Positions 2 through 53,436 of a stretch of 64,000 nucleotides of DNA are shown here, one piece after another. Every line of letters starts with the position of its first letter. The first letter of the stretch is position 1. Both the position numbers and the translations under genes were made by a program. Source of the stretch: Pirellula sp. (GTDB taxonomy: Bacteria > Planctomycetota > Planctomycetia > Pirellulales > PNKZ01); assembly GCA_013822735.1 (NCBI GenBank), contig PNKZ01000011.1, forward strand, positions 62,001 to 126,000, read 5' to 3'. The notes beneath the pieces were generated by a model. That model did not search any database and was not told the DNA's origin. It saw nothing but the letters and a program-made list of their open reading frames with translations.

Positions 2-3000
2 AGTGTCTCCGGCGGATTAATCGTCCGTTTTAACACCGCCTCGGCCACGACCTTGACCGACAACAGCGACGCCGCCGCGACCGACTTCACGACGCTCGGC
101 ATGGCGACAAATCCCCTGCTCTGGTCGAACGGCATCACGAACCGCAGCGTCAACTCGCTAACGTTCGACACCTCGGGCGGTTCGCAAACGGTGAACATGG
201 GACCGACGACCAACATCCTCACGGTCACTAGTGGCGCTATTCAATTCATCGGCGCTAACGCCGGCACGTTGACCGGCGGTCAGTTGGGCGCGGCGAACTC
301 GGAAGTGATCGTCCACCAAAACGGCGCGGGCAACTTCACGGTCGCAAGCCAAATCAGCAGCGGCACCGGCAGCCTCATCAAGCTCGGTAACGGATCCCTG
401 ACCATCGCCACGACGGCGGGCAACACCTACTCCGGCAACACCCAAATCCTCGGCGGCTCCGTCATCGCGGGCGCTGCGAACACGTTGAGCCCGAGCTCGC
501 GCGTGACGCTTGCCAACACGTCGGGAGCGGCCCTGAGCTTGAACGGGTTCAATCAAACAATCGCCGGCCTCTCGGGCGGCGGCACGACCGGCGGCAATGT
601 GATTTTGGGAGGGGGCGCCACGCTCACCGTCGGCGGCCCGAACGTGCTGACGAACATCTCGAATATCGGTAATCGCACCACGTTCGACGGCGTGATTTCC
701 GGCACGGGGAATCTCACGCTCACCGGCGGCGGCGTCCTGACGCTTACCAACAACCTCAATAGCTTCTCCGGCCAGGTGAACGTCAACGCCGGAACTTTGG
801 TGGTTAGTGACGTGGCACAACTGGGCACCGGCACATCACCGGTCGCGGTGAACGGCATCTCCAGCACGCAGGGCCTGCCGGGAGGTATGTTGGTCGTGCA
901 AGGGGGAAGTGCCGGCCTGAACTTTTCGCGCGACCTGACCGTGGGCGGCCGCGGACCGAATACCGTCGGCTTGTCGTTGCTCAACATCGGTAACAATCTC
1001 TACACCGGCAATTTGTCCTTCAACGCGAACTCGGAAACGCGCATCGGATCGGCGGCGGGTACCTTCACACTTTCCAGCGGTGGCACGTTGACGGCGTCTA
1101 ACGATCAACGCCTTTACATCACAGGCGGACCGGGCAATTTCGTATTCGACGGTTTAGTCTCCGGCGGAGTGTCCGGCACCTCGGGCATCAATAAATCGAG
1201 CCGCGGCGGGCTGGGTAACACCCTGCTCGTGACGAATGTCAACAATACCTACATCGGCGACTGGCGCAACGATTCCGGTACTACTCGTATCAGCGACGCG
1301 CGCCAACTCGGCACCGGTACCTCCGCCTCGGTGATCCGCGGTTCGGGCGGTATCTGGGAATTCCGCACGGACGCTCCCGCAGGGTTCGCCACGAAGAACG
1401 TGAGTCAGGTGGACGGCAATTTGACGATGCTGGTCGATCGCGCCGTTGGCTCCACAAGTTCGCTGATCAATCAGACGGTGACGTTCGCAAACTTCACCGA
1501 AGTCAACAATCGCACGTGGACTTTCACCGGACGAAACGGCTTCAATATCACGTTCTCGTCGTTCCTCGGAAGCGGCGCCGGCGCCAATGACGACGGCCTG
1601 ACGATCACAACCAACGGTACGACCACGTTTGGTCCCGGAAACGTCTGGTCCGAAACGGACAGTACGGCACGAACGTTCACCGTGACGGCGACGGGTGAAA
1701 CCGTGCTGCCCGGGAACATCATTGCGACGGGGGCCAGCCACGCATTCAACAAGGCAGGTTCCGGCACGCTCACGTTGGGAGCAACCGCTTCGACCTTCGC
1801 CGGTTCCGCCACGATGTCGGCGGGAACTTTAAATATTTCAACTATCGGCGCTCTCAACGCTTCGAGTACGGGGCGCGTGGTCTTCTCGGGCGGCACGCTC
1901 AACTATACCGGCACCGGCGAAACGTGGACCAACAAGGTCCTTCTCCTTAACGCGACCAATAGTATCCTGACGAACAACGGGTCGGGCGGCATCTTGCTCC
2001 CACAGAACGTCGGCAACAACGGTACGGGCGCCAAAAATCTTGTGCTCGGCGGCGCCAATAACTCGACGAACGATCTCCAGGGCCTCGTCGTCAATACGAC
2101 CGTAGGTGCAGGTGTGACGAAGTTCGACACCGGAACATGGCAGATCAGTAGCCCCGGCACGACGGCAACCACGATCGGTACTGCGAACGCTTCGTTCGGA
2201 ATCACGGCCAACGCCACGGCATCGCAAACGGTGACGACGACCAGCACGACCGGATTGGTCGTCGGCCAGCCGGTATCGGGATCCGGCATTCCGTTCGGAA
2301 CCGTAATCACTCAAATCATTAGCGGGACGCAATTCGCGATCAGCCAGTCGACGGCGGTTCCGGCGACGATCAGCCTTGGCACCGTCACCGGCGCGACTTC
2401 GGCGATCAACACTTCGGCGGTCAGCGCCGGCACTGCCGCCAATCCCACACTTACGTTTGCGAGTACGGCGAACCTCGTGGTCGGCCAGCAGGTCACCAAT
2501 CCGGCGCTAACCGGTAACTGGTATATCAGCGCCATCACCAGCGCCACGGTCGTGACTCTTGCAAGCACCACGGGCAACACGCTCACCGTGGGCGGCATTG
2601 CCAGCGGCCAGGCCATCACGCCCGCCGCAAGTCCGAACTTCGCCGGTCCGCTTACGATCACAGGCGGGACCGTGCAATTGAACCAAGTCTCGGGCAGTCC
2701 GGTTCTCAGCGGGTTGACCAACGTCGTCTTCGCAGCGGATACGATTCGCAACAACGGCTTTGCGGGCGGCACTCTCAACTACAATCCTTCCGCGGGCGGC
2801 TCACAGACGGCGGGCATTCTCTCCATCACGGCAGGCGTCGGAACGGTACAGATCACTCCGATTTCGGGCACCAATACTCTCACCTTCGGTTCGATCGTTG
2901 CGCCTTCGCAAGGCACGAGCCTGAATTTTGTAGTGCCCGCAGGCACGAACAACGTGACGCTCACGACCGCTCCGGCGATCGGCCTGCTCAACGCCCACGC

Positions 3001-6000: not shown

Positions 6001-9000
6001 TATCAGCGGTCCGGTCGCACACGGCGCCGGCACCGGTACGGCGGGAGCCATCACCATGGCAAGCTCCGGAAATTTGGTCCTAAGCGGTGATACCGGCTTC
6101 GGAACAACCGGCACCGGACTCACGCTCAATAGCGGTACGACGACGCTCATCGGAACCACGGGACGTCTCAGTACTGCCGGCGTCACGACTACCGTCGCTC
6201 ATGGCGCTACGCTGACTCTCGACAACAATACCAACATCGTCGCGGCGGTTTCCGGATCGGCACTTCCCGGCGTTACGGCCGGCAATCCCACCACGGCCGA
6301 CCGGCTCAACAACCGGCCGCTCGTGCTGAACGGCGCGACCTTCAACTTCATCGGCAACAGTGCAGGCTCTACCGAAGGTACGGCGGGTAATACGCTGACC
6401 TTCAACGCCGGCCAAAGCACGGTGAACATCACCAACAACGGCGGTACGACACAACTCAACTTCACGACGCTGTCGACGGCCACCGGAGCGTTCGTAAATT
6501 GGACCTCCAACGCCACGTTGGGAACGGCGACGAACCGCGTAATCTTCTCGACTGCGCCGACGCTCACTCCGGTGACGACGGGCATCTTGCCGCGCAATAC
6601 TGTGAACGGCACTGATTTCGCCACATACGGCGCCAACGGCATCGCAGCCTTCTCCAACTACAACAACGGCCTCGCCTATACAAACATCAACACGGCCGCT
6701 GCGACGGATACGCTTAAGATCGGAGCCGGCTTCGTCACAAGCGACGATATTACGACCGCGACGAAGACGGTAAATGCTTTGAATATCGTCAGCGCCGGCG
6801 TGAACATGGGACTTTCCGGCGTGACCGATGGAACATTGACGCTGACTTCCGGCGGCATCATCGCCAGCTATGCCGGCACGTCGACAGTCAGCGTTCCTCG
6901 CGTGGCGTTAGGTGCGGAAGGTGCCGTCCACATCGGTTCCGGAGCGACGCTCGATATGACCGGCTCATTCACGGGCACTACGGGACTTAACAAAAATCTT
7001 TCCGGCGCTCTTACATTCACGGCCCAGCAGTTCTACACGGGGCAAACGACGGTTAATGACGGTACGCTGAATCTCAACTTCGGCACCAATACAATTTTCC
7101 CCACGGCGCAGGGTTTTTCCGTCAACAATACCGGCGTCGTCAATCTGAACAATTCCGTGCAGTATGTCGGCACGCTCAGCGGCGGCACGCTTCCCGGCTC
7201 AGGAGGCACGATCAATCTCGGCTCGGGATTGCTTGTGACGAGCATGACCGGAAGCGCGACGTTTGCCGGCTCGATCACCGGTACGGGCGGTTTTGCCCGC
7301 ATCAACGGCAACACGCTCACTCTAGAAAGTCCGCTCGCCCACTCCGGTGCGACGGTGCTAATGGGGGGCGTTACGACCCTGCGCGACAACGCAACGTTGC
7401 TCAATACGTCCTCCATCGCGATCAACTACGGCACATTGACGATCGATAACAACGCCAACCTGCAAATCGATATTTCAAATCGCGTGAATGACGCCGCTCC
7501 CATTACGTTACGGGGCGGCACGCTGATCTTTACGGGCCGTGCGAGCACGTACTCTTCCGAGAATCTCGGTGCTTTAACTTTAGCGCAGGGTTCGAACATC
7601 GTCACGGCGTCGGCCAACGGGAACGCTACCGGACAATACGCCACTTCAGATTTGACGTTTGCAAGTTTTAGTCGAGCTGCGGGTGCCACGGTCAACTTCA
7701 CCGCCGGCGCCGGTACGCTCGGTGCCGAAGGCGCCAATCCTCGTATCCTCTTTGGATCAGGCATCGGCAATTTGAGCAACAACGCGCTCGGTGCGTGGGC
7801 GATAGTAAACAGCACCGACTATGCGGCTTACAACGTCGCCCAAGGCGCCGGGGCATTAGGCAGTGCCGGGTTCGCAGGCTACGACGTAACGTTTGCCTCC
7901 GGCAACGTCACCAACATACTAACCGCCGCGAACATCACCACGACGCTCTCCGGCCTCACGACGACTTCGATGTTACGCCTCGCGGGAGCATTTTCCAACG
8001 ACATCGCTTTCACGGCTACAGGCGACGAGCTGAACCTCGAGCAAGGCGGTTTGCTCCGCAGCAACAATAACAACGCGTCGTCGATCGGCACCGCGGCGAT
8101 TCGCGGCGTCTTAACGAGCGGGACGAGCGAGTTGGTCGTCTACAATAACGCCAATACGACCGGGGCCACGGTTATGACGATTAACTCCGTCATTCAAGGT
8201 CCTACGACACTTATTAAGTCAGGGGCCGGCGTGCTTTCGCTCACCGCACAGAACACGTACACGCTGGGCACCGTGGTGAATCAAGGGACCCTCGAACTTC
8301 GCGGTACGAATACCGGCGACGTCGTGATTCCTGCCGGCGGACTCACGATTAACGGCGGCACGCAGGGTGCGGGCGCAGCGGTGACGATGTTTGCTACCGC
8401 CGTAACAAATCCAACCGGTCAGGGGCAAATCGCCGCTTCGAACGACGTTACGCTTAACGGACGCGCGACCCTCACGCTGGTCGGTAACAATTCGCTTGCT
8501 AGTTTGACGTTCAACAACATCGGCGGGGAAGCCAATAATCCGACCGTTGCGATCGGCACGGGCGTTCTGAATCTCACCGGCAACACGCCGTTCACCGCCA
8601 CGACGAGCAATGCTGCGGGCACGAACACGGTAAGCGGTACGGGGCGCGTAACCATTTCGAATGGCGCAAACACCGTGAGCGTTGGCGCCATTGCAACCAC
8701 AGGGCAGACCTACAATACAATTGCCTCCGGGCTGACGATCGCTTCGATTATCGCCGGCGCGGGAACCAATTCGAGCATCATCAAAACCGGAGCCGGACTG
8801 TTGCAATTGGGCGCGGCGAACACATTCGCCGGAGGTTTAACGGTCAACAACGGCGGGATCATTATCGGAGCCAGTAGCTCGCCGACTCAAGGCGGTGGAG
8901 GAATTGCCGGAAGTCCGTTGGGCGTGGGTAATGTCAGCATGGCGGCTGGTACTTCGTTACTGGTGGACAATACGAGCCGATCCGTCGGAAACAACATTGG

Positions 9001-21000: not shown

Positions 21001-22747
21001 GCTGACGATCAATGCAGGCGCGGGCTACGATCTCAACGGCTTTGGTCAGGCTAGTAAGCAGATCGCAGGGGCCGGCTTTATTACGAACTCCGCGAATTCA
21101 TCGCAGACTCTCATCGTCGGCGGTACTGCGGCGACCGATACCATTACAAACTTGAACAGCACCTTCGACGGCGTTATTACAGACAACATACTGTCCCAAG
21201 CTACAAGCCGGATCGTCTTGACCAAGTCCGGTCTCGGCACGCTTACGTTGACGAACGCTAACGGCTATAGCGGCGCCACCAATATCAACAATGGTCTGCT
21301 GAGCATCGCCAACGGATCTGCCTTAGGCACGACGGCGGCGGGAACGGTGGTCGCTAACGGGGCTTCTCTCGAACTGCAAAACAACATTACTGTCGGCGCC
21401 GAAGCCCTCAGCATTGTTGGTACCGGTTCGGCGACAAATGGGGCCGTGCGAAATCTCAGCGGCAACAATTCTTATGGCGGGACCGTAACGCTTACAGGTA
21501 CCGCTACGATCCAATCCGATGCCGGATTGTTGACGTTCAACGCGCTGAACTCAATCACGGGAGCCGCGCAGAACTTGATCGCTACGGGCGCCGGCGATGT
21601 TGCAATCGGCGGCACTATTACCACAACGACCGGTTCCGTGACCAAGAACGGGGCCGGCACTTTGACGCTTTCCGGCATTAACCTCTATACCGGCAAGACG
21701 ATCATTAACGGCGGCGCAATTAGCATCTCGGATGAGGCAAATCTCGGTTCCAACCCGGCTTCCGTGACGGCTGACCAATTAACGTTGAGCGGCGGCATGC
21801 TCACTACGACCGCTACCTTGACGATCGATGATGCCAATCGCGGAATCACCGTGAGCGGCGCCGGCGGCGAAATCAATGTTGCGACCGGAACGAAGCTTAC
21901 ATACGCCAATCAACTAGCAGGCTCAGGTGCCGTGCTTACAAAATCCGGCGTAGGATCGTTCACTCTCGGAAATTCAGGAACTCATTCCTATTCTGGCGCG
22001 GTGAATGTCACCGCAGGTACGTTCAACGCAGGCAACGGTGCCACGTTAAGCGGAAACGTCGATGTTTCCGGCGGCTCGTTCAGCCCGGGTTCGAGCACGA
22101 ACGGCGATAACAATAACGGTGTGGGACAACTGACAATTAATGCACCGAGTGCTTCGAATTGGAATACAGGTTCCAATTTCGTATTCGACTTTGCCGCTAC
22201 CGACACCGACACGATTTCAAATCCCACAAATTGGGACTACCTGAAATTCACCGGCGCAGGAGGCCTGTCGCTCACGCCTGGATCGGCTTACACGATTTCG
22301 CTTCGCTCGTGGTTGGGGGCGAATTACGGCGACAACGGCTTTAATCCAAGTGCGCCGGCCACCATCGACCTCAGTACAAAGGAAACCGGCCAGAATGCAA
22401 GCTATCGTTGGCTATGGGTCGACAACGCAGGCTCGGGGACGATTTCCGGGGACAACATCACGGCCGGGACGAGCAATGGTGCATTGTCTCAGTTCACGTT
22501 CGACACGACGAACTTCTACGGATCCGGCAGCCCCTTAGTTGGCGGCGGACAGTTCTGGGTGAGCTCATTCAATAGTAAGCTTTACATTAATTACTCGTCG
22601 GTACCGGAACCCGGGAGCTTGCTATTGGTCGGACTCGCCGGACTCGGCTTTGGCGCATATCGCCGCCGCAAGCGAGGTCAGGTCGGTGCCGAAGAAGTAA
22701 TTGCCAAACCCGGCATTACCTCGGACGAAAGCGATTCAAATTCCTAG
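2..22747 (+). CDS. Giant autotransporter-associated beta-strand repeat (PATR) protein with PEP-CTERM tail, 5' partial
   Basis: The reading frame is open to the left edge of the window, so the true start lies upstream; at least 7,580 codons are visible. The protein is Gly/Thr/Asn/Ser/Ala-rich. It consists of repeated beta-strand units of the pattern K-x-G-x-G-T-L-x-L followed by N-T-Y-T/S-G-x-T-x-(I/V)-x-x-G-T-L, which is the autotransporter-associated beta strand repeat of the PATR family. I saw no cysteine by eye. Residues encoded from about 6.2 kb to 21 kb form four related megadomains. Near 2.2-2.6 kb are two copies of a 'VGQxVSGxGIPxGT' module. The end (22601-22747) is a PEP-CTERM signal: VPEPGS, a hydrophobic segment and YRRRKR. 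Such tails are processed by exosortase and imply export to the cell surface. There is no C-terminal beta-barrel, so this is not a classical type V autotransporter. A paralogous giant gene follows 630 bp downstream. The ligand or function is unknown; an adhesin or matrix scaffold is inference. Confidence 0.93.
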   Translation, partial: SVSGGLIVRFNTASATTLTDNSDAAATDFTTLGMATNPLLWSNGITNRSVNSLTFDTSGGSQTVNMGPTTNILTVTSGAIQFIGANAGTLTGGQLGAANSEVIVHQNGAGNFTVASQISSGTGSLIKLGNGSLTIATTAGNTYSGNTQILGGSVIAGAANTLSPSSRVTLANTSGAALSLNGFNQTIAGLSGGGTTGGNVILGGGATLTVGGPNVLTNISNIGNRTTFDGVISGTGNLTLTGGGVLTLTNNLNSFSGQVNVNAGTLVVSDVAQLGTGTSPVAVNGISSTQGLPGGMLVVQGGSAGLNFSRDLTVGGRGPNTVGLSLLNIGNNLYTGNLSFNANSETRIGSAAGTFTLSSGGTLTASNDQRLYITGGPGNFVFDGLVSGGVSGTSGINKSSRGGLGNTLLVTNVNNTYIGDWRNDSGTTRISDARQLGTGTSASVIRGSGGIWEFRTDAPAGFATKNVSQVDGNLTMLVDRAVGSTSSLINQTVTFANFTEVNNRTWTFTGRNGFNITFSSFLGSGAGANDDGLTITTNGTTTFGPGNVWSETDSTARTFTVTATGETVLPGNIIATGASHAFNKAGSGTLTLGATASTFAGSATMSAGTLNISTIGALNASSTGRVVFSGGTLNYTGTGETWTNKVLLLNATNSILTNNGSGGILLPQNVGNNGTGAKNLVLGGANNSTNDLQGLVVNTTVGAGVTKFDTGTWQISSPGTTATTIGTANASFGITANATASQTVTTTSTTGLVVGQPVSGSGIPFGTVITQIISGTQFAISQSTAVPATISLGTVTGATSAINTSAVSAGTAANPTLTFASTANLVVGQQVTNPALTGNWYISAITSATVVTLASTTGNTLTVGGIASGQAITPAASPNFAGPLTITGGTVQLNQVSGSPVLSGLTNVVFAADTIRNNGFAGGTLNYNPSAGGSQTAGILSITAGVGTVQITPISGTNTLTFGSIVAPSQGTSLNFVVPAGTNNVTLTTAPAIGLLNAHAYYNGGDFVYNPATTNSTLRAPLYGTDANFAAVNTMPAAATVAAANNVFYNASSSTTGAATQFALSVKLTGAATTLSLLAGQTLTVQSAANGAGGILATNGGAAFANIISGGVGITSGGTGDLVFRVDGSATDSLTLSTPMTATTTGGFTKNGAGILILNAVNLETAAGTINVNEGTLQLSGATTTLGANNMNLTLRQGTTFDLNGVNVNSTTASINSLNGAGLITNNAASGSVNLNVGNNGGAGVFSGVIQDGANATLSLNKAGTGTLTLTGLNTFTGPVNITGGTIAVTKLADIGFASGLGKGVATNDATNAASLVFVSGTTGTIQYTGAGANVYQTTQTPSISINRLFTITGGATGTIDSSGQFGNNTAAASTGNQATLIFNNPGNIVYAGSGTATLGLGGTSTGDNEFRPLLTDPNFAVTKTGAGLWILKPTGGNNTYAGATTITQGSLRADDGVGLSASSVLTFNGTGTNNAVLETTGLFARSIGGGPGQMQWAANLNGGFAAGTDALEVTLGGSAFFGTGGIGNGTGNLVLNSPTALSNVTVSASLNLNGAARTIQVDDNGTTNTDYAILSGAISGGTGSGFIKTGTGLLYITGNNTYSGNTVLSAGNVVVTSIGGGSATSSAFGDQSGILGLNGGGLYYVGGGEVTSRQISLTASSTIDSSGSGALVITNFVNATAGAKTLTLDGFSNDANEMRSVLADNGGALGVTKSTGGGTWILSGANTYTGTTTINGGYLGIAGATTGTLGTALSTGPISFSNGGIYALNPGGLTINNTISMANGTVAIFTGVNSITLANTVGNLSGASIGALVNTIASPATLTISGNLTNADLTAARTFTIGGTGNTLITGNLTSASAFAQSIGINTSGTVTFNGTNTTTGGGGTITQGLLIANGNPFSGGVVNFIGGVLQANTSLAITTLSLNGNGTNTPNAAFPTLNGSSSVSVTTMQLDQGNNGSPTRLFYNNLGGGAFMTVGALNLIGAGNGNGTLFLAGTGNTFISGPVAHGAGTGTAGAITMASSGNLVLSGDTGFGTTGTGLTLNSGTTTLIGTTGRLSTAGVTTTVAHGATLTLDNNTNIVAAVSGSALPGVTAGNPTTADRLNNRPLVLNGATFNFIGNSAGSTEGTAGNTLTFNAGQSTVNITNNGGTTQLNFTTLSTATGAFVNWTSNATLGTATNRVIFSTAPTLTPVTTGILPRNTVNGTDFATYGANGIAAFSNYNNGLAYTNINTAAATDTLKIGAGFVTSDDITTATKTVNALNIVSAGVNMGLSGVTDGTLTLTSGGIIASYAGTSTVSVPRVALGAEGAVHIGSGATLDMTGSFTGTTGLNKNLSGALTFTAQQFYTGQTTVNDGTLNLNFGTNTIFPTAQGFSVNNTGVVNLNNSVQYVGTLSGGTLPGSGGTINLGSGLLVTSMTGSATFAGSITGTGGFARINGNTLTLESPLAHSGATVLMGGVTTLRDNATLLNTSSIAINYGTLTIDNNANLQIDISNRVNDAAPITLRGGTLIFTGRASTYSSENLGALTLAQGSNIVTASANGNATGQYATSDLTFASFSRAAGATVNFTAGAGTLGAEGANPRILFGSGIGNLSNNALGAWAIVNSTDYAAYNVAQGAGALGSAGFAGYDVTFASGNVTNILTAANITTTLSGLTTTSMLRLAGAFSNDIAFTATGDELNLEQGGLLRSNNNNASSIGTAAIRGVLTSGTSELVVYNNANTTGATVMTINSVIQGPTTLIKSGAGVLSLTAQNTYTLGTVVNQGTLELRGTNTGDVVIPAGGLTINGGTQGAGAAVTMFATAVTNPTGQGQIAASNDVTLNGRATLTLVGNNSLASLTFNNIGGEANNPTVAIGTGVLNLTGNTPFTATTSNAAGTNTVSGTGRVTISNGANTVSVGAIATTGQTYNTIASGLTIASIIAGAGTNSSIIKTGAGLLQLGAANTFAGGLTVNNGGIIIGASSSPTQGGGGIAGSPLGVGNVSMAAGTSLLVDNTSRSVGNNIGFANGSPFFDSTGVAVATMTLNGALSFGSATSIVASIPNPNLTVQLLGQIPNIGSITSITKTGLGTLQFNSTGYTGNFNVSQLGAPSSISIFNDGSMTGLPSTQLLGSIVFDAGIAPVITIGRAGTSIPYTQAQNQILAPSSLNNLALGLTLTNSQGYGLQVSDAVTLASTPFSVSAATTSTLTQGLYLNGLLSGTGFTKLGAGTVVLGNAGNNFTGNIVVSQGVVSVASDAMLGNAANQVQLNPTTGTSTLRVTADVITNRVIQLSNTANTRAIEVVVGRTLQLNSAFDVSLAAAATLAKNDNGTLAINVSNTGWTGNTTINGGAVRLLNATGLGSGTIIILPTTTASQIGSGALQLSGGISIGNNFTLGSGTATQVTSGINSLGAIQSVSGSNTLTGTITNTVGAVFMIGADPGATLNIAGPVVATNSVSLVGGGTINLQSAQPAYSAFSVLSGTTVNLTANSSAAFTPTINVRNGVMTISGAGRTGATGLVTVSQNGTLTVDDTGTATPLRLNNRALTLEGGSFNYKVNATGASSEVSSGGLSISSGGSTINVDNTVGLQGSTLQWGSLTPNAGASVNLTGAFGTAVNKILATGVVPVGGAVPATNGILPRITVNGTEFATYNTNGVTINTNGFQAFAGYSVQTDISSAASTDIFKATSSTTNNVPSTQTIAAINMNGGGFSIDAVSGVIPTTLTLSTGAILVNGGGVSSLDVPVVALAAVEGIVHVASGSTATFTSGFSGTAGFTKTLGGTLNLGHQQYVSGTTTVNGGTLNLQSGATNTLLFNNNLTVNTGGIVDLKNGVQYIQNLASQSAAAGATVLGGTVTNSGAQATLVTNSNSTFGGVISGTIYLNKTGTSGLTLVNANTYTGPTLITGGTVTLSDSGTLANTSGIEINYGTLTLNNNSLFDSGNRVNDAADITMRGGIITYQGRSQTASSETLGSLTLVEGHNSVNNTAGAGASLQSTDLTFGALSRTVGSIATLRFNNLGAHGQLGSNVRTTFTSINGVSTATLGGGLTNNIIGAWAIVDREYATYVPGMGIGGLNAVGFPTGSGNTLLSNPLSTDNVRFGTAGTTTLTGNVTLNTLTFTSQTTATVLNLGGNTLTAAGGGILFGQGTDNIDFSITNGTITAGVANSPSDLYLTQANFGGTARTVTIGAVIANNGTGALRLIRSAGDSGASVMTLNAVNTYTGGTVINQGTLTVGATGALGSGGITVNQGTLSQTALGSIGIQSLTMNGGSTVTLANQANTITGLTINNNGGAAPTLTPTGTLTLTGGIVVTTSNAGTTATIGAGTLDLNANASYSINVGAAIVNGKDVAPWQAGLNITSLIQNGGIVKSGAGMLQLGSTTSTFAGGVTVVQNGGGIILGADSSPSAAGPVTFGPLGTGTLTMGSGTSLVASAARLIANDVVFLADTGTPGIGNTTFNGINNLTLNGNTTLPAVWNATVTAPQMTVTISNVVGSTVSDVINKSGLGILTVGGYLGTLQVSGGVVLTGDGNLRGTVESLSLGGGIVISGDTSLTVNHSGAALQALNKILQKSTLDIGSDTLAVTNASGYGLEITGATTLSNIPTISVANATNSNVVQGMYLSGQVTGAFGIIKSGSGALVLSNATNNFGGAGQAVEIRKGILSVSNNGALGNAANTVLLNVNATTGAGFRSTGTFSTARTFTLNQAQNAFEVTAGNVLTLSTAFSIPVTTNAIFKNDNGVLELAASNTASNWSNATAGITINAGAVLLSNSNAAGLATNKIVVNAAIGAALQLSGNVTIANPLILNNVANETSRGGLNSGGHLQSVSGINTYSGLIATTFDAEIGANGGSTLNITGGIDNTGGRQITFLGAGTINLSSTIQNAAPFQVNKYGAGTLNITTAQTLTFGASTGLGLQVNAGTVSISGAGSLPSAAVGGLNVNPGATLDVNDSGTVTPTRLGNSAVTLNGGSFTYTGNSAGSSEASTAALSTAVGAATITLNQTSGGAVAVSFGTFAQGADTSFTLTGSGTNLPGTANNKITFTTAPTTVPATSGILARGIYTAGGAFDFVSYNHTGAAANTNGLQAFTNYNATSATNINSAVAADTVNVNAGMTTSSLTASKTINALKITGTGLTVGGSSRVTMTLTAAGIAVTGGTNTINVPVVAFATNQAIYHVNAGSTLNLNSTLSGTAGMVKADGGTLVLNAPANIPGIANTTANIGMTGTHNLLGGTLQLGADNAIAQNSFLRVGPGATLDMNGKTQFLQGLFTSSSVPETSAGSLGLINNSAGAAANLITNLDNTARSWSGAISGNINFTRSGQSTWSVYSNQTYTGTTLINGGTTTLRDAGAISGTSSIDINYATLTLDNNVGLLDSGDRINDTAPINLRGGSITFNSRINTASTETLGAVTLIEGLSVITSNIPTTLATQVGSADLTLTSLNRSTGGGTINFTGAIAGVGAVTAGLIGNNARILIPTINGNSTATVGGGLNNGIIGGWATINQSDWATYIPGLGVAAMGTTGAAQYSNATSSATTLNTALVTDNISINTAVGTIPVTNDTTINSLRMGNVTANTVAIAAGKTLTLSSGGLLFFSTATQTIGAAVNQGNLTTTGPELFVYTQGAGPQVINSVITGAGVTLVKSGGNALTIAGANTYGGGTTVQQGTLTIAATSTIPLATNPAKGLVINNATVTAAAANVISAGNIVTLNSNAAILNLFGSNTLTGVVFSAVGGTSNPTLNTFTATAAGGYGTLTIGASGIVSTSQNVQSIALIDGRIDFGAGGNTVTVGTIDVNGATDVSPLQRGLLLRGIVGSAGGFTKNGSGNLELGAQQIFTGSLNVAAGGLRIAVANAGSRFANLNLSTSTSRVDLLALTTTFGSLSGNGLIFSSTTAGTLQVGFDNTDSTFTGTFGRYSDAVVNAVNLTKIGTGTLNLTTAQSITNASTGTVTVSGGTLSFNGAGAWFTGTTTPVAFAEIFTVNNGGTLLLDNSLASGANVNNRLGLNATGTLNLQGGTLRINGNGNDAAATTEQITTFNVTNGGGFVTLSADAGSQLNMTITTLSALNANGSAVFRGIAGTAAANGNATLTITTPALAGGQGAGNNGTTNMSVRGDILADASVSGNGTGFLVKDTSTNVYRALGNFGGGGFASGEYNLTPTSWAGAQNAGINASAQTVMANTASNTLTVGGTSSLGSGLNATAFGLYGPGGGLLTESLSNAAAFLALDGSTVSVNVGSLNNTTAGTTLVFHTVGSAVLNVNNYFGLGNTGGLMKADAGTMSLNNLALFTGGVVVNGGTLNLNSGSANTLAVVPGVTTPTVNLLTLNGTSALVDLKGNNQAVGALASTNILPGMGGTVTNTGAAATLTSTGGGNFGGAINGAIAFTRSGNNTTLLTNVSGYTGATTIRGGTLQLRDSGSILGTSSISINYGTLTIDQSGLNPSGNLNPTRVSSGTAITMQGAAIVLTAGGSMDSSQSLGTVSLTGGANIIQPTILASQGSSNTLTIANLQTTALVTAGGTLNVNAAVGQPGINQAELILTQLNGATPTAGAYLGANIIVNNGDYASYLAAQGIGAMGSTGFLAYGAALASAANTPTVINLNTAALVIGANTTTGSLKFGTNATTAMTFTVGTEILNLALGGLLSSNNANAVNIGTSTQRGRLTAGNTATGNFDLVTYQPQNTTTIESIIENNSGGGVVRLVKSGGGTLTLTAPNTYTGGTVVNQGTLNLTATTAGNVVIPGNLTINGVNSATNTTVTMNTNAQQIATTSNITINGGGTLTLVGANTLNSVTFNNAGAMANPTVATATLLILSAANAVTSTNDSLSTTPVISGTALQLSNAAPVITVNAGLSPNGLQISAPITSAGGVITKSGAGALSLSGASTFTNGFDLNQGTLIFGVGTTGTVTNGPVGTGTLQIDNGTTIMSDGTVRSIANATSITGDFTVGGVVSGNGVTLTGAMNLGAAARQITVSSPAVTLNINALMTTTVASANGLTKAGAGTLTIGTAQTDVAFGGTGTTAGVTVAGGVLKNGVANAIANSSLLTINAGAGYDLNGFGQASKQIAGAGFITNSANSSQTLIVGGTAATDTITNLNSTFDGVITDNILSQATSRIVLTKSGLGTLTLTNANGYSGATNINNGLLSIANGSALGTTAAGTVVANGASLELQNNITVGAEALSIVGTGSATNGAVRNLSGNNSYGGTVTLTGTATIQSDAGLLTFNALNSITGAAQNLIATGAGDVAIGGTITTTTGSVTKNGAGTLTLSGINLYTGKTIINGGAISISDEANLGSNPASVTADQLTLSGGMLTTTATLTIDDANRGITVSGAGGEINVATGTKLTYANQLAGSGAVLTKSGVGSFTLGNSGTHSYSGAVNVTAGTFNAGNGATLSGNVDVSGGSFSPGSSTNGDNNNGVGQLTINAPSASNWNTGSNFVFDFAATDTDTISNPTNWDYLKFTGAGGLSLTPGSAYTISLRSWLGANYGDNGFNPSAPATIDLSTKETGQNASYRWLWVDNAGSGTISGDNITAGTSNGALSQFTFDTTNFYGSGSPLVGGGQFWVSSFNSKLYINYSSVPEPGSLLLVGLAGLGFGAYRRRKRGQVGAEEVIAKPGITSDESDSNS
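2219..2610 (+). repeat. Two 'GxxVGQxVSGxGIPxGT' modules in the first giant protein
   Basis: About 60-residue units with the core TTGLVVGQPVSGSGIP (first copy) and TANLVVGQQVTNPALTG (second copy). Each is followed by a T-x-I-T-x-I strand and an alternating Thr/Ser/Ala strand. The same unit occurs about nine times in the second giant protein. It reads as a small all-beta spacer inserted between PATR repeats. Confidence 0.7.
6211..21000 (+). repeat. Four tandem megadomain repeats inside the first giant gene
   Basis: Ordered landmarks recur with nearly constant spacing. A 'xTLxxDxx' strand is at 6211, 10497, 14739 and 17840. A '(V)NGT(D/E)FATY'-like segment is at about 6607, 10853 and 15100 (4,246 and 4,247 bp apart). 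An 'I-N-Y-G-T-L-T' segment is at about 7424, 11688, 15972 and 19158. A 'GGGIIxGAxSSP' segment is at about 8840 and 13093. Copies 1 and 2 are about 4.25 kb (about 1,420 aa). Copies 3 and 4 are shorter (about 3.1 kb) and copy 4 is the most diverged. Short stretches remain nearly identical in DNA, for example around 7421-7440 and 11687-11706. Boundaries are approximate because I aligned by eye. Confidence 0.8.
22601..22744 (+). other. PEP-CTERM sorting signal of the first giant protein
   Basis: Encodes VPEPGSLLLVGLAGLGFGAY, then RRRKR and a short hydrophilic tail of about 23 residues. The Pro-Glu-Pro motif, single hydrophobic helix and Arg/Lys cluster are the three hallmarks of PEP-CTERM signals recognised by exosortase (EpsH/XrtA family). 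The tail after the Arg cluster is longer than the few residues usual in this family. Confidence 0.9.
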
Positions 22748-23377: not shown

Positions 23378-23866
23378 ATGCGTTTTTGCGCAACCACGCC
23401 GATCGCGCCCTCGTCATGTACGCGGCGCGCGCGTTCAAGCATTGCTATTGGGCGACTTCGATTGGTCGCGAACGTCTTCTCGCTATTAATGCTTTGCTTA
23501 ACTGCACGGGTTCGCGCGGATGGCGAGCTCCTTCACGGCGCAAACGACAGTTCACAACAAATCGCGGCCACCGAGTCGTCAACCATTGCTCAAGGCAACT
23601 TGCGGAAAGCGTCGTCGGAATTCGTAGTTGTTACGTCGCTCTTTGGCGCGGAGTTGCCGATGTTGGCGGCGCTATTACTCGTCGTCGCAACCGTTGGTGC
23701 GGGTACGCTCGCTACACGCCGTCGATCCGGTCTCACTCAAACGATCGCGCGGTTCCCAAAACAATCGGTAGCCGGTCCGGCTCGAGTTCGCGCCGTTATT
23801 CATCGCGCCATTGTGTATTTGGTCGTCGCGGCACTAGTCGCCGGAGGCGCGCCGGTTTGGGCAGCC
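23378..23866 (+). other. Long composite export leader of the second giant protein
   Basis: Residues 1-46 look like an ordinary Sec signal (Arg-rich n-region, core VANVFSLLMLCL, then TARVRA). Residues 94-116 are a hydrophobic helix followed by ATRRR. Residues 138-162 look like a second signal peptide ending APVWA|AN. Which site is cleaved cannot be decided from sequence. Confidence 0.6.
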
Positions 23867-46927: not shown

Positions 46928-46990
46928 GAAGTGATTGCGTCCGCCGCGGCTGCCGGCCCGTTATCGGCCGCTTGGCACTCGATTCTTGGT

Positions 46991-46994
46991 GAGG
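46991..46994 (+). promoter_or_regulatory. Ribosome-binding site deciding the start of the TPR lipoprotein
   Basis: GAGG within GGTGAGG lies 5 nt before GTG at 47000. The frame is open about 70 bp further upstream, but only the GTG (or TTG at 47003) has this site and gives a normal lipoprotein signal. Confidence 0.55.
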
Positions 46995-46999
46995 TGTTC

Positions 47000-47953
47000 G
47001 TGTTGAATGGGTGGCTGAAATTTTCGCGTCGGAATACGTCCGATCGTCGGCGTTGTCGGATTGCCGTAGTTCTTGGTTGCGTTGCGTTGTTGCAACTCGC
47101 CGGTTGCAAGGAAGAAACGCGACCCGTCAATCGTAAGGCCGTTCAAGGCCAAGTATTGGCGGAACATCCCGGCACCGTCGCCGGTTCGTCGGAAATCGTA
47201 ATTGCTCCGACGATCATTGAACCGGAGCATCTCACGCCCGATGTGCTCGGCACGAGCGCAGGGGTGCTGTCGTCAAATACTCGCGATGCAAAAGAATGGG
47301 AGCGCGCCGGAGCAGCCTCCGCGGGTTTCTCGGCGCTAGCGGGCGGCATCAGCTTCGCTTCCGCTGCGATACCCGCGAAGGGCAAGCAACTTTCGCCTCT
47401 GGAAAAAAGCCTTCAGGCCGGATTGGAATACCTTAACGCCGGAAATTTTTCCGAAGCGGCCGGCAAATTTGAAGCGGCACAAGTCACGGATCCGCGCGAC
47501 TATCGCGGGTTCTTTTTCGAGGCGGTTTGTCGCGCGCAGCTTGAAGATCTAGCTCGTGCGGGCGCATCGATGGATCGGGCGATTGCATTGGCTCCCCGGG
47601 AAATCGAGCTCTATGTGCATCGCGGGAATCTCATGCTTCGCAAGAAAGATTACGGAGGAGCCGTCGACGACTTCTCGCACGTGGTGACGCTTGAGCCCAA
47701 GAACGTGCCGGCCTTGTTGAATCGAGCGGTAGCGAATTTCCATCGCCGTCGCCCGAAAGATGTGATCGCGGATGCGACCTCGGTTATTGAGATTCGCAAG
47801 GATATCCCCGACGCGTTCTTGCTTCGAGCACTGGGGAACATCATGACCGGAGAGCCGGCCCGAGCGCGGCGTGACTACGATGCGGCCGTGGGCGCGGGGC
47901 TTTCCAAGCAGGCGATCGACACTTGGCGCCCCGTTTTCTACCGCGAGGGATGA
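47000..47953 (+). CDS. TPR-repeat lipoprotein
   Basis: A 317-aa protein starting at GTG 47000. Residues 9-36 are Arg-rich, then hydrophobic, ending in the lipobox LAGC (Cys36), so it is predicted to be a lipid-anchored envelope protein. A low-complexity linker (about 40-140) leads to TPR repeats over roughly residues 145-310, visible as alternating A/G/Y helices such as GLEYLNAGNFSEAAGKFEAA and AIALAPREIELYVHRGNLML. TPRs mediate protein-protein contacts; no enzyme motif is visible. It lies 96 bp after the stop of the second giant gene on the same strand, so it may be co-transcribed and help handle or anchor that protein, which is inference. The next gene is convergent. Substrate and partner are unknown. 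Confidence 0.85.
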   Translation: MLNGWLKFSRRNTSDRRRCRIAVVLGCVALLQLAGCKEETRPVNRKAVQGQVLAEHPGTVAGSSEIVIAPTIIEPEHLTPDVLGTSAGVLSSNTRDAKEWERAGAASAGFSALAGGISFASAAIPAKGKQLSPLEKSLQAGLEYLNAGNFSEAAGKFEAAQVTDPRDYRGFFFEAVCRAQLEDLARAGASMDRAIALAPREIELYVHRGNLMLRKKDYGGAVDDFSHVVTLEPKNVPALLNRAVANFHRRRPKDVIADATSVIEIRKDIPDAFLLRALGNIMTGEPARARRDYDAAVGAGLSKQAIDTWRPVFYREG

Positions 47954-48122: not shown

Positions 48123-49427
48123 CTACTGGATGCGGTTGATAAAGTACTGGAAGCTGATGCTGCCGAGAATCATGTTGGCGAGGACTTCTGCGGGCGTGTA
48201 TTGCAGCATCACGTAGTCGCCGGGCTGAATCAAGATGCGTTGTGACGGATCGACAAACGCCCGATCCAGGCTGATCTTGATGGGGATGGTGGAGCCGTTG
48301 GGAAGTCTACGAAGCACCACGATTTGGGTCGGAGGTAGGGCGCTGCGGCCCGAATTGCCGCCGATGCCGCCGCCGCCGCCGCCTGATAACGATCCCTGAG
48401 TAAAGCCGGACGACACGGAACCGCCCGCCAGCGAGATTGCCGCCAGCACGTCTAAGTCGTAATCGCGCGGCAATGGGATTTCGCGACCTTGCAGAACGCC
48501 GCCCGTGTAAAACACTTCTCGCTCACGCGTCTCGATAAAGACGATATCGCCGGTATTGAGGATGATGTCGTCTTCAGTGAGTTGCGTTAAGGGGCGATTC
48601 GGTTCGGCGCGCATCGGAATGCGTATGACGTTCGGGTTCTTGCGAACAAGATCTTCGGAGCCGTTGTAAGGCCCGAAGTTCACCATTTCCTGAATGATCC
48701 CGTCGCGTGATTGTGCGTCGGCGAACGTGCCGCGTAGGATCAAGACTTCGTTCTTGGCATCCAAGCCGGGCAAACCGCCGGTCGCTGCGAGCGCGTGCAT
48801 CACATCGTTTTCGTAGGCGCTCAAGTCAACCGTGAATGCATTCCCGCGCTTCGACGGGCCGGCGATGAGAATTCCCTGCTGTGCGCTTTGCTGCGATCCC
48901 AAGTCTTCGCGTACCACGACGATCTGGTACGTCCGCTTGCGCATGAGCGTGACGAGAATACGATCGCGTCCCGGCACCAAAATGCCTTCACGGAGATAGG
49001 TGTCTCGAATCTCTTTCTCAGCCTGCGACAACGTCATGCCGCTAATCTTGACGGGCGTAATGAGCGGCAGCGCCAACGTGCCGTCTTCGCGGATCGGAAT
49101 CGGATAGCCCAACGCAGGCGGAAGCTTGCTATCGACCGGGAAGTGTACTTCCGGAGGAAGCTCTTCGCTGCCGAGCACGCCTTGAATGTAGATACCCAAG
49201 ACGTCACGGGGGCCGAGTTGATAAACGGCCGGAGGGTCTTGCCGCAGCCGAATCAAATTGATGGGCTGCCGGCTAGCTCGCTCCTCGCCGAGCATCCACT
49301 TCGGTAGCCGGTTCGCCGGAACGCCGTTTAGCGCCAGCGACGAGCATCCGCTCAACGTAACTCCGCAAAGCACGGCGAAGAGAATCGCCGTCACGCTGTA
49401 TTGCCGAGTGATTGTCATGACTTCCAT
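48123..49427 (-). CDS. Wza-like polysaccharide export lipoprotein (PES/SLBB domains)
   Basis: A 434-aa outer-membrane-type lipoprotein. A signal with lipobox LSGC (Cys28) is followed by the polysaccharide export domain: YQLGPRDVLGIYIQGVLG at about 70-88, then a 'IPIREDGTLALPLI' strand and 'VKISGMTLSQAEKEI' at about 128-142. An 'RILVTLMRKRTYQIVVV' segment follows, then SLBB-type domains carrying DLSAYENDVMHALAATGGLPG and GDIVFIETREREVFYTGGVL. The end is a hydrophobic segment (ILGSISFQYFINRIQ) that may be the C-terminal membrane helix typical of Wza. The family forms oligomeric channels that pass exopolysaccharide through the outer membrane. Start may be ATG 49427 or ATG 49418; the latter has GGAAG just upstream. 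It lies 57 bp downstream of another lipoprotein gene, probably one operon. No polymerase, Wzc or glycosyltransferase is present nearby. Confidence 0.9.
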   Translation of the reverse strand: MEVMTITRQYSVTAILFAVLCGVTLSGCSSLALNGVPANRLPKWMLGEERASRQPINLIRLRQDPPAVYQLGPRDVLGIYIQGVLGSEELPPEVHFPVDSKLPPALGYPIPIREDGTLALPLITPVKISGMTLSQAEKEIRDTYLREGILVPGRDRILVTLMRKRTYQIVVVREDLGSQQSAQQGILIAGPSKRGNAFTVDLSAYENDVMHALAATGGLPGLDAKNEVLILRGTFADAQSRDGIIQEMVNFGPYNGSEDLVRKNPNVIRIPMRAEPNRPLTQLTEDDIILNTGDIVFIETREREVFYTGGVLQGREIPLPRDYDLDVLAAISLAGGSVSSGFTQGSLSGGGGGGIGGNSGRSALPPTQIVVLRRLPNGSTIPIKISLDRAFVDPSQRILIQPGDYVMLQYTPAEVLANMILGSISFQYFINRIQ

Positions 49428-49484: not shown

Positions 49485-50330
49485 TTACGGCGTAGCGTTG
49501 AGCGAGTCTCCAAACAGCGCGGCCTGTGCGACCGGCGCTTCGGACGTTTGCGTTTCGAATTGCGTCTGCTTCCCCCCGATCGGATCTCGCAACACCGGTT
49601 GCGGCGCGGCCGGCTTGGCCTCGTTCGTCGGCGCGGTCACCGGAGCACCCGACGTCGTTGCCTTCCCGGTCGTCGGCGCATCAGGAATCGCCGGCAGTTC
49701 GGTCGTCTTGCCCGGGAGGGCGGGAACGACGGGCGGCGGCGGAAGCGTATTGCCCGGCGGCATCGGTACCGTCAACGGCATCGGTTCGACGGCGTTGGGA
49801 AGTTCGGGCTGCGGTTGCAGCGGCACGACCGGAGCGACGCTGCTGTGCGGAATCGGAGGCAAAGGTTCACCTTCGATCATGGCCGGATTGAGCCCCGGCA
49901 CTTCATTCAGCGGACGATCGGTCGAGGCTTGTTGTCCCGGCGCCCACGATGTCGGGATCTGGTTATAAAGCGCGAGGCCGTCGCGTTCCGCGGCCATGGC
50001 TCCATCTTGATAACCGCGGAACCATGCGCCGATATACGCGGTTCCTTCCGGCGTTTGATAACGCGTGCCCCAGTAATAATTGGGCGGAAAGAGCGGGATC
50101 GCGCCGTTGCTGCCGGAAGCGACGTCGTAATAACCTTGTTCAAAACCGCGACCAAGATGTTCGCGAACCTTATGAGGGACACCTTGTCGCCAGTAGTCCC
50201 AACGCGCTTGTTTCCAGGCCCCCGCAGCGGCTTTGTGATTGCGCGCTGAAATGGAGAGATCTTGAAACTCCGCGCAGCCGCAAGCCAAGAGTGTTGCTGC
50301 AAGGGCCAGCCCGAATGCGGTGCGAAACAT
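49485..50330 (-). CDS. Planctomycete-type proline-rich lipoprotein of unknown function
   Basis: A 281-aa protein. ATG 50330 is chosen because GGAG lies 5 nt upstream and a compact signal follows (MFRTAFGLALAATLLACGC; Cys17 or Cys19 is the lipidation site). Residues about 20-130 form a conserved-looking aromatic domain: W-x-x-x-R-x-D-Y-W, HLGRGFEQGYYDVASG, PPNYYWGTRYQTPEG and AWFRGYQDGAMAAERDG. From about 150 on it is Pro/Ala/Thr-rich and low in complexity. I recognise the 'GRGFxxGYxDVASG...PxxYW' pattern from hypothetical planctomycete proteins; its function is not known. It is the first gene of a probable two-gene operon with the Wza-like exporter, which suggests a cell-envelope or polysaccharide role. 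Confidence 0.82.
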   Translation of the reverse strand: MFRTAFGLALAATLLACGCAEFQDLSISARNHKAAAGAWKQARWDYWRQGVPHKVREHLGRGFEQGYYDVASGSNGAIPLFPPNYYWGTRYQTPEGTAYIGAWFRGYQDGAMAAERDGLALYNQIPTSWAPGQQASTDRPLNEVPGLNPAMIEGEPLPPIPHSSVAPVVPLQPQPELPNAVEPMPLTVPMPPGNTLPPPPVVPALPGKTTELPAIPDAPTTGKATTSGAPVTAPTNEAKPAAPQPVLRDPIGGKQTQFETQTSEAPVAQAALFGDSLNATP

Positions 50331-50335
50331 AAGTA

Positions 50336-50339
50336 CTCC
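50336..50339 (-). promoter_or_regulatory. Ribosome-binding site of the lipoprotein operon
   Basis: On the - strand GGAG lies 5 nt before ATG 50330. This decides for the internal ATG over the longer frame starting at 50357. Confidence 0.6.
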
Positions 50340-50362
50340 GTCCGAAAATCCGGTCATTCACT

Positions 50363-50385
50363 GCGCGGATAAACAATCTCCGCGC
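50363..50385. promoter_or_regulatory. Inverted repeat upstream of the lipoprotein/export operon
   Basis: GCGCGGA and TCCGCGC form a perfect 7-bp stem with a 9-nt AT-rich spacer, 33 bp upstream of the start codon. It could be an operator or a 5' leader hairpin. Confidence 0.3.
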
Positions 50386-50688
50386 TCGGATGCGGTTCCG
50401 TTACGTACTCTCTTCGGACGGTGACGATCGGTTCGATTATTCCGTTTATGAGGAACTTGCAAATTCTTCCGCGTGTGCGGTTCGCGTCAAAGGATTCGGC
50501 TGCGGTAGTAAGTGGTGCTCTTAACCACGCCGTGTTCCGCCGCGAATTGCCGGCAGCCGGCATCGGCTTTGACGATTTTTCCGAATGTGCGGCGGAAGAA
50601 ACTGATTGAGTTGGAGGATTATTCCGAAGATAAGCAATAAGCCGAGCTAAACGGGTCGGCCACGCTTCGTTTGAAGTCAGTGCTAGCT

Positions 50689-50693
50689 GGGAG
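50689..50693 (+). promoter_or_regulatory. Ribosome-binding site of the 911-aa TPR protein
   Basis: GGGAG lies 7 nt before GTG 50701; the upstream in-frame TTG at 50671 has no such site. Confidence 0.6.
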
Positions 50694-50700
50694 AATCGCG

Positions 50701-53436
50701 GTGAGCCGTAATTCGAATAAACGCCTGCTGTGGACCGGTTTCGTCCTGGCGATGCTCGGCATGATGCCGATGGCGCCGTGTCCGGCGTTTGCCGGCTTAG
50801 CTGCGCTCGACGCTTTTCATGTCGGCCGTTATCACCTGGCCAACGGTCAGCGGGAGCAGGCGTTGGAATCGTTCAACGACGCCTTACGCCTTAATCCGCA
50901 GTTTGTCCAAGCGTACGTCGCTCGCGGTAAGCTCTATGCCGAACTGGGGCAGCACGAAAGCGCCCTCGTCGATCTCAATTTCGCGTTGCGACTCCAACCC
51001 ACTCACGCCGAGGCTTTTGCCTATCGAGGCTACGCGCTGCTTTCCTTGGGGCAGGCCCAGAAGGCCCTGCCGGATCTTGAGATGGCGCTGCGAATTGATC
51101 CTTCTTACGCTCGCGTTCACTTCTTACGCGGCCAAGCGATGCAAATGCTGGGCGACGAACAGGCGGCCGGCGTCAGTATCGCCATGGCGCGACGACTCGA
51201 CCCCACTTTGGATGTTTCACAAGTCATCACGGCGAGTGCCGACGGATCCTTGGCAGACGTTGGAGTTCAGTTGGCGGGCGGCGGTTCCGGCCCGCAACGA
51301 ACGCCCGTCATGAGCGAGTTGATGCCCGTACAACTTGAGTCGAAGCCGTTTGAGCCCCGGTCGCTAGGACGACTCGTGCCGTTTCAGCAACATCCCAATC
51401 TCGCCGATGTCGCTCCTCCGGCCATGTCGCGCGGCTCTGTATTGGCGCCCGCGCTGGCGCACGCGAACATTCGCGAGCAACTTATTCCGCGAAAGCATGC
51501 GGCGAATCGTCCCCGTCCGCTAACTCCGCCGCAAACGGCTTCGGCCGCACCGAAGCTGCCTGACATTACCTCGAAAGTGCCGCTCGACGCGTCGCACGAG
51601 CCGTTGGACCTCGAGCTCTCGGCCAAGCCCATCAGTAAGGTGCCGAACGAAATCAGTGCCGATGCAAAGGTCGCCGACGCGAAACAGACCGACAAAGTCG
51701 CTCTGGAGCCGAAAGCGAAGCTGCAGGACGAGATTGCTCTGAGCATGCCGGACGTCTCCAAGCCGGCTCCTGCGGTTACGGTGAAAGCGATCCCGCAGAC
51801 GGAAGCGACCGAGAAGTTGCCCGCTCCGTTGCCGACGAAGACGACGGAAGCTCCCGTCGCCAAGACAGAACCCAAGACGGAGCCTGCGGAGGAATCGGCT
51901 ATTGCGTCGTCGGAACGAAAAGATCGCCATATTCCGGCATTTGGTCCGCAGATATTCGTCGTTCCGGCCGACGGCGCTGCCGCCGATTCTCGCCAGGCCG
52001 CCGAAGAGCTAGCCGCCAATCTCCCTGCGAGCGCGATTCTCCGCGGTGCGCCGACGGGCGGCCTGATGCTGCCTGAAAAGCCCTCGTCGATCGAAAGTGA
52101 TCGACGATTGCAGGCGGCCGTCGAAGCCGCCCGGCTTAGCGCGGCGTCTGACGATGCGATGGCGATCGTTGAAGATACCGGCGACGTCGAAGAACCTGCG
52201 GTCGCACAAAACGAACCGACGGCCGAACAGTTGGAGCAATCCAAAGCTGCCTATCGCCGCGGCACGCAGCTGGAAGCGGAAGGCAAGACGGCCGAAGCTT
52301 TGGCCGCATATCAAGAAGCCGTTAAGCTGAATCCGAACGACGCCGAGGCCTACTGCCGTCGCGGGCATCTCCTCATGGAAGGCCTGCGAACGGCGGAAGC
52401 ACTGGCCGCGTTCGAGAAAGTCATCGCCGTGGCGCCAGGTCTGTCGAGCGGCTATTTCGGGCGAGCACACGTTCGTTATGTGACGGAACAATATCTCGAA
52501 GCTGTTTACGATTACTCGATCGCCCTTCGGTTCGATGACCAGCATGCCCAAGCGTTTATCGAACGCGGGCATTGCTACGACCTCTTGGGGCGGGTCGCCG
52601 AAGCCAAGGCGGATCGCCGCGCCGCACTCGATCTGGATCCGAGCCTCGCCAAGACGGGTCCGAAGTACGCGATGGGCACGAAAGCCGATGCAATCCCTAC
52701 GGCAGTCATGCCGGGCGCCACGGCCTTTGCCGGCGACATCGAATCGGTCGTGCCCACGACGGCTTCCGACACTTCGTCCAAGCTTGGAAATCAGGCGATT
52801 GCCACCGACGTTGGGGCGAATAAAGAGGTGCACCAGCCGAAGCCGGGCGAATCGGCCTTCGAAAACCTCTTCAACAACGCGAAGCCGCCGGTGGCCGACG
52901 CGCCAGAGGGTGTGTCGACGAGCCCCGACGCTGCGACAAAGATTAGTCCCAACGCAAAAGAGTCCGCGGCCGAAGCCGAGCTCAAGCGATTGAGCGCTGA
53001 GATCTCGGAGTTCCCCGGCGACAAGGATCGCTACTTCCGTCGAGCCCGCGCCTACTGCACGCTGGGCCAGTTGCAAGCGGCATTGGACGATCTCAACACC
53101 TGTCTGCGTTTTGATGCAGCCCATCTTGAAGCAATCAAGCTGCGTGCGGAAGTGCATGCCAAATTGCACAATAGCGCCGCGGCGGCCGCCGACCTTACTA
53201 CCGCGCTCCAGCAATCGCCGGACGACGTGACACTGCTGCTGAATCGCGCAACCTCGTTGGCGGAAAACGGCGACGTCCGCGCCGCGCTCGCCGACCTCGA
53301 TCGGGCCGTCGCACTCGACCCCCGGAATCGTGCGGCTTATCTTGAGCGAAGCCGCATCCACGCCGAACGCGGCGCGTTTACCGAAGCCCAAGCCGATCGC
53401 GATCAAGCGGTTCGTCTCGGCTCTGAGTCGAAGTAA
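50701..53436 (+). CDS. Exported protein with three separate TPR blocks
   Basis: A 911-aa protein starting at GTG 50701. Residues 1-32 are a Sec signal peptide (Arg/Lys, hydrophobic core LLWTGFVLAMLGMM, likely cleavage after AFA). TPR block 1 spans about residues 36-165 (helix pairs such as ALESFNDALRLNPQFVQAYV). TPR block 2 spans about 513-650 (AEALAAYQEAVKLNPNDAEA). Block 3 spans about 758-908 and contains at least three repeats. The blocks are joined by long Ala/Lys/Pro/Glu-rich linkers without visible domains. TPRs bind proteins or peptides, so it may be a periplasmic scaffold. It is divergent from the lipoprotein/Wza operon and may serve the same envelope system, which is inference. No catalytic motif is visible. 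Confidence 0.87.
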   Translation: MSRNSNKRLLWTGFVLAMLGMMPMAPCPAFAGLAALDAFHVGRYHLANGQREQALESFNDALRLNPQFVQAYVARGKLYAELGQHESALVDLNFALRLQPTHAEAFAYRGYALLSLGQAQKALPDLEMALRIDPSYARVHFLRGQAMQMLGDEQAAGVSIAMARRLDPTLDVSQVITASADGSLADVGVQLAGGGSGPQRTPVMSELMPVQLESKPFEPRSLGRLVPFQQHPNLADVAPPAMSRGSVLAPALAHANIREQLIPRKHAANRPRPLTPPQTASAAPKLPDITSKVPLDASHEPLDLELSAKPISKVPNEISADAKVADAKQTDKVALEPKAKLQDEIALSMPDVSKPAPAVTVKAIPQTEATEKLPAPLPTKTTEAPVAKTEPKTEPAEESAIASSERKDRHIPAFGPQIFVVPADGAAADSRQAAEELAANLPASAILRGAPTGGLMLPEKPSSIESDRRLQAAVEAARLSAASDDAMAIVEDTGDVEEPAVAQNEPTAEQLEQSKAAYRRGTQLEAEGKTAEALAAYQEAVKLNPNDAEAYCRRGHLLMEGLRTAEALAAFEKVIAVAPGLSSGYFGRAHVRYVTEQYLEAVYDYSIALRFDDQHAQAFIERGHCYDLLGRVAEAKADRRAALDLDPSLAKTGPKYAMGTKADAIPTAVMPGATAFAGDIESVVPTTASDTSSKLGNQAIATDVGANKEVHQPKPGESAFENLFNNAKPPVADAPEGVSTSPDAATKISPNAKESAAEAELKRLSAEISEFPGDKDRYFRRARAYCTLGQLQAALDDLNTCLRFDAAHLEAIKLRAEVHAKLHNSAAAAADLTTALQQSPDDVTLLLNRATSLAENGDVRAALADLDRAVALDPRNRAAYLERSRIHAERGAFTEAQADRDQAVRLGSESK

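Follow-up and report, generated by a model that had tools for sequence, protein, structure and literature searches.

In the Pirellula genome analyzed here, three giant beta-repeat proteins encoded in tandem are probably the substrates of an exosortase U (XrtU)/PEP-CTERM sorting system that its position links to an exopolysaccharide (EPS) cluster of the Wza/Wzc type. We base this reading on which genes are present and how they are ordered, on exosortase motifs that are intact, on the PEP-CTERM tails, a predicted beta-helix fold, and the lack of an autotransporter barrel, and on the linkage of Wza to XrtU and Wzc in relatives. Judged from sequence, the region as a whole resembles a single, very large plan for a cell coat of protein and sugar. 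The gene set itself (PMC1569441), the giant genes of planctomycetes (PMC5177795), and the phenotype of an exosortase mutant elsewhere (PMC12188702) were already known; the all-PATR set of large substrates, their tandem arrangement beside the exosortase, and their double-signal N-terminus are new.

Three giant genes and their neighbors

The window is a stretch of 64,000 nucleotides, bases 62,001 to 126,000 of a 200-kb contig (C11), from a genome of 6.88 Mb in 38 contigs that is 99% complete (G000). We compared it with two congeners (G003 and G002) and a sister genus (G005), among other planctomycetes. The gene order of the locus is glycosyltransferases, WecA, and Wzc (divergent), then XrtU, TPR600, TPR582, giants A, B, and C, a TPR lipoprotein, Wza, Lip290, and TPR921. 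The giants, all on the plus strand, are 12,557 aa (A), 8,901 aa (B), and 7,841 aa (C) long, with spacers of 728 bp (A to B) and 630 bp (B to C) and 88 kb of coding sequence in total. Giant A (C11:19640-57313, 37.7 kb) lies wholly upstream of the window. Giant B (C11:58042-84747) begins 3,958 nt before the window, which holds its C-terminal 7,581 aa (2 to 22747), and it contains a super-repeat of approximately 1,100 to 1,400 aa in four copies. Giant C (23378 to 46903) has relatives in G003 (contig C404) and G005 (contig C4). The earlier note had described two giants of at least 22.7 and 23.5 kb; both are real, but the first is cut by the window edge and measures 26.7 kb in full, and the third, larger giant lies upstream.

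Pfam scans matched PATR (PF12951) in every long piece of all three giants, and each ends in a PEP motif, a hydrophobic helix, and a basic end that match PF07589 over the cutoff. In the window, these tails are VPEPGSLLLVGLAGLGFGAYRRRKR in giant B (22598 to 22666, plus strand) and VPEPGSLTLIGLAALGLAGYRRLRKK in giant C (46778 to 46846, plus strand). The only other Pfam domain was a single, sub-threshold PA14 match in giant A. The giants are rich in Gly, Thr, Asn, and Ala, low in charge (Lys and Glu each approximately 1%), and nearly free of Cys. Between giant C and its congener ortholog, substitution rates at codon positions 1, 2, and 3 are 0.355, 0.261, and 0.548 over 3,836 codons, and the third-position excess is the mark of a selected protein. 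Together with 7,841 open codons at 58 to 60% GC and the PATR and PEP-CTERM matches, these rates indicate that the giant open reading frames did not arise by chance. A search for a promoter motif common to the upstream regions of ten giants, sigma-54 type included, gave no clear signal (1 of 10, versus 4 of 58 controls).

Four genes follow giant C. The first encodes a TPR lipoprotein (340-aa ORF, 46931 to 47953, plus strand, lipobox LAGC), whose G003 ortholog adjoins the giant C ortholog. The second encodes a Wza-like polysaccharide export lipoprotein (48123 to 49427, minus strand) with a Poly_export domain (PF02563, 45.5 bits over a cutoff of 28) and LSGC near its N-terminus. The third, directly upstream of Wza, encodes Lip290 (49485 to 50357, minus strand), a small lipoprotein with a conserved helical core and a Pro-rich tail. 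The fourth, divergent from the Lip290-Wza pair, encodes TPR921 (50671 to 53436, plus strand), which has TPR repeats and a signal peptide-like N-terminus and is kept across the family. Because the Wza-like and Lip290 genes are on the strand opposite the giants and the TPR genes, the gene set is not one operon. Both giants of the window, their VPEPGS tails, and these four genes had been reported earlier, and open reading frames and Pfam place all of them as reported; the TPR scaffold given as 911 aa is there too, although its frame is 921 aa from the first start. PADLOC gave no match.

Exosortase U and an apparently split polysaccharide cluster

Searching the genome by protein family gave a single exosortase, encoded on contig C11, 4.9 kb before giant A (PF09721, 123 to 125 bits). 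Its exosortase U C-terminal domain (NF033780) scores 119.8 bits against a cutoff of 40, which assigns it to type U, and it carries C215-x-G, N257-xx-R, and H281-xxx-G, corresponding to the three invariant EpsH motifs Cys-x-Gly, Asn-xx-Arg, and His-xxx-Gly (PMC1569441). The earlier note had held that a genome with no exosortase would refute a coat system here, and that refutation fails, with an enzyme with intact Cys, Arg, and His motifs on the same contig. Two other identities were rejected: exosortase A (TIGR03109, 82.8 of the 208 bits required) and, for the TPR proteins, PrsT (TIGR02917, 42 to 83 of 312 bits). Among the open-access papers searched, we found none with exosortase U in the present sense and none linking PEP-CTERM and “giant protein.”

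The XrtU gene overlaps the gene of a 600-aa TPR membrane protein, TPR600, which is followed by TPR582 and then giant A. Of 34 further XrtU loci in planctomycetes, 23 have TPR600 next to XrtU (counted from gene maps), and TPR600 is likely an exosortase U partner. The overlapping pair lies at L004:12923-16485 and recurs in relatives. Divergent from XrtU are genes for Wzc, a WecA-type transferase, two glycosyltransferases, three polytopic proteins, and an ABC-2 membrane protein; Wzc, WecA, and the two glycosyltransferases are within 8 kb of the exosortase.

The named relatives matched by the Wza protein of the window are planctomycete metagenome genomes and isolates, and Wza orthologs are 55 to 89% identical. 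Among 79 planctomycete Wza loci picked by Wza similarity, Lip290 is encoded directly upstream of Wza in 64. Lip290 itself has no Pfam or NCBIfam match, and its predicted structure had no Foldseek match with E < 1, although a known fold is still possible. In two distant planctomycetes, Lip-Wza, XrtU-TPR600, and Wzc lie within 9 to 12 kb: one locus (L033) combines Lip290-Wza, a short PEP-CTERM-like protein, TPR600, XrtU, and Wzc, and the other (L128) combines TPR600-XrtU-WecA-Wzc with Wza-Lip. A third locus (L047) has two glycosyltransferases (GT_b, GT_a), Lip, Wza, Wzc, and WecA in one run. In G005 and G006, the proteins encoded after Wza resemble an exosortase-associated O-glycosylation ligase weakly, below the cutoff. 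Since the pieces stand together in other planctomycetes, the export genes of the window probably belong with the exosortase and EPS genes, with the giants between them. Read this way, the Wza pair and the upstream genes look like one known type of PEP-CTERM/EPS cluster split by approximately 88 kb of giants. The genomic tie among giant PEP-CTERM proteins, an exosortase, and a polysaccharide export and synthesis cluster that the earlier note proposed is supported, both by the shared contig and by Wza standing with the exosortase/Wzc set in L033, L128, and L152.

The earlier note was aware of no system of this composition already described, but the set is that of the PEP-CTERM/EpsH and EPS system described by Haft 2006 (PMC1569441). 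Both have PEP-TM-basic tails, a Cys/Arg/His exosortase, EPS synthesis and export genes, and TPR proteins nearby. Here, in contrast, the exosortase is of type U rather than A, every PF07589 substrate (14 of 14) is a PATR protein of up to 12.6k aa, and three giants with double-signal N-termini stand in tandem next to the exosortase. The Wza-like protein resembles other Poly_export proteins in being a lipoprotein with PF02563 and differs from them in its pairing with Lip290.

The predicted substrate set and its conservation

All 14 PF07589 matches in the genome are in PATR frames; measured from stop to stop, these range from 1,174 to 12,608 aa, and together they take up 211 kb (3.1% of the genome). 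A PATR protein of 4,269 aa whose tail carries VPEPGG (L125:8383-21192; C20:18383-31192) is absent from these matches and is probably a fifteenth substrate. Elsewhere in the genome (L119-L121; C1:278846-316474), two PATR giants of 5,048 and 7,325 aa are encoded in convergent orientation, with about 505 bp between their tails. Large PEP-CTERM frames also occur in relatives, with 10,147 aa in G003, at least 11,903 aa in G002, and about 10,142 to 10,144 aa in G005; in other families of the order, none exceeds 2,553 aa among the matches listed.

The order TPR921-Lip290-Wza-TPR lipoprotein-giant C is the same in G003 as in our genome, and among the genomes compared only these two have giants beside the Wza and TPR genes. 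G002 has the TPR921-Lip-Wza-TPR set without a giant there, and its giant directly follows TPR582/XrtU instead. In G005, the relative of giant C is away from both Wza and XrtU. The earlier expectation that giants are kept near the export and TPR genes therefore holds in G003 and not in G002 or G005. Because the synteny is present in one congener and missing in another and in the sister genus, it is recent; the giants are a family trait set in a recently formed neighborhood. This patchy conservation counts against the XrtU and EPS reading, as do the strand of Wza and Lip290 opposite the giants, the lack of a giant after TPR582 in G001 (where the Wza contig stops before the relevant place), and the lack of a PATR giant at most XrtU loci elsewhere.

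Some of these observations would fit two independent neighboring systems, with the giants as ordinary XrtU-sorted adhesins scattered genome-wide and the export genes serving a separate polysaccharide. Eleven of the 14 PF07589 proteins lie outside the locus, with unrelated genes adjoining those whose flanks were read, and in G005 the giant, XrtU, and Wza are on three contigs. Given the 9- to 12-kb clusters in L033 and L128 and the published link between EPS and PEP-CTERM (PMC1569441), we regard such independence as unlikely.

Several side observations concern relatives. Two truncated G002 giants at contig ends (L111-L113 and L021; 11,903 and 3,307 aa) might belong to a single gene, which would then encode at least 15,210 aa. 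G003 has a short PATR/PEP-CTERM gene (1,014 aa; L012:8280-11324) between TPR268 and TrmB homologs. Another genome (G121) has two XrtU loci (L130, L136); at each, a giant of different build accompanies a short PEP-CTERM protein, and one of these giants has Ig-like and lamin-tail domains.

Predicted fold, proposed pathway, and double-signal N-termini

We modeled a 520-aa super-repeat copy of giant B (6902 to 8461, plus strand) with AlphaFold2, using 13 homologs from the same and related genomes. The model (pLDDT 85, pTM 0.88) is an all-beta chain of about 50 strands. Its best structural neighbors by VIA-align are EspP (Z 18.3 over 245 residues of the passenger at 3.9 Å) and EspC (Z 18.7, but with an rmsd of 18.5); Z values of 12 to 14 link it to many beta-helix proteins, mainly through model residues 1 to 327. 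Foldseek gave no match with E < 0.001, and the beta-helix assignment rests on VIA-align Z together with DSSP. The giants are therefore predicted to fold as a beta-helix like that of autotransporter passengers, and each would be an estimated 120 to 190 nm long if approximately three strands per 0.48-nm turn hold throughout. Like EspP and EspC, they combine PATR repeats with a predicted beta-helix, and they differ in being roughly 8 to 12 times longer.

A low-charge, Gly/Thr/Asn-rich, nearly Cys-free beta-repeat would also suit structural proteins of an S-layer-like, stalk, or holdfast kind that have nothing to do with polysaccharide, and planctomycetes commonly carry giant surface genes (PMC5177795, Kohn 2016). 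With exosortase and EPS genes adjoining the giants and no S-layer domain in Pfam scans of the three, we think this role quite improbable. That the giants are type Va autotransporter adhesins carrying themselves through the outer membrane is highly improbable despite their PATR repeats and structural likeness to EspP and EspC, since the Pfam scans found no C-terminal beta-barrel in any of the three and a PEP-CTERM tail occupies the C-terminus.

Under the preferred reading, XrtU sorting coupled to EPS, each giant would be exported via Sec by its N-terminal signal or signals and fold outside the cytoplasm as a long beta-helix, while the C-terminal PEP-CTERM helix would keep hold in the inner membrane. 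XrtU would then cut at the PEP motif and pass the giant on, probably to a glycan-lipid or to exopolysaccharide. WecA, the glycosyltransferases, and Wzc would make the polymer, which would exit through Wza, with the TPR proteins and Lip290 helping, and the giants would end as fibers or a network tying polysaccharide to the cell. We infer this function of the whole locus from its genes. Experimental work elsewhere shows that EPS is kept on cells with the help of exosortase and PEP-CTERM proteins (PMC12188702, PMC9850573), and an exosortase mutant lost adhesion to its own polysaccharide and biofilm formation (PMC12188702).

The giants share with those of Kohn 2016 a surface-type character and the presence of several genes over 20 kb in one genome, and differ in their tie to an exosortase/EPS locus; giant A, at 37,674 bp, is slightly larger than the biggest gene of Fuerstia (36,239 bp, PMC5177795). 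In planctomycetes, which are rich in giant genes, the locus allows such proteins to be placed in a concrete pathway of one exosortase, a set of large beta-repeat substrates, and an adjoining polysaccharide machine. G005 has one exosortase and a PEP-CTERM giant as its sole PF07589 match and, provided that a relative is in culture, would allow a clean test of one enzyme on one substrate.

By hydropathy, giants A, B, and C share an N-terminal layout of signal, linker, membrane helix, Arg-rich loop, and second signal ahead of the repeats; the G002 giant beside XrtU and the G005 giant have it too. The modules belong to giants A (C11:19640) and B (C11:58042), span 23378 to 23863 of the window in giant C, and in the two relatives lie in L021:2-9922 (minus strand) and from L108:7968 on. 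In giant C, the first signal-like segment is at residues 22 to 40, the membrane helix at 88 to 106, and the second signal at 144 to 162. A further seven PATR giants in our genome have a single signal. BLAST among the N-terminal modules found no significant similarity, and layout alone is common to them. Tentatively, the locus giants may be a distinct class with two successive export signals, either anchored at both ends in the membrane, as a chain of 7,800 to 12,600 residues, until they are released, or yielding a small membrane protein plus a giant from each gene. In such a class, which we consider possible but doubtful, the first signal would lead into an Ala/Pro-rich stretch outside the cytoplasm; a membrane helix and a cytoplasmic Arg-rich loop would come next, then a second signal just before the beta-helix, with the PEP-CTERM helix at the far end.
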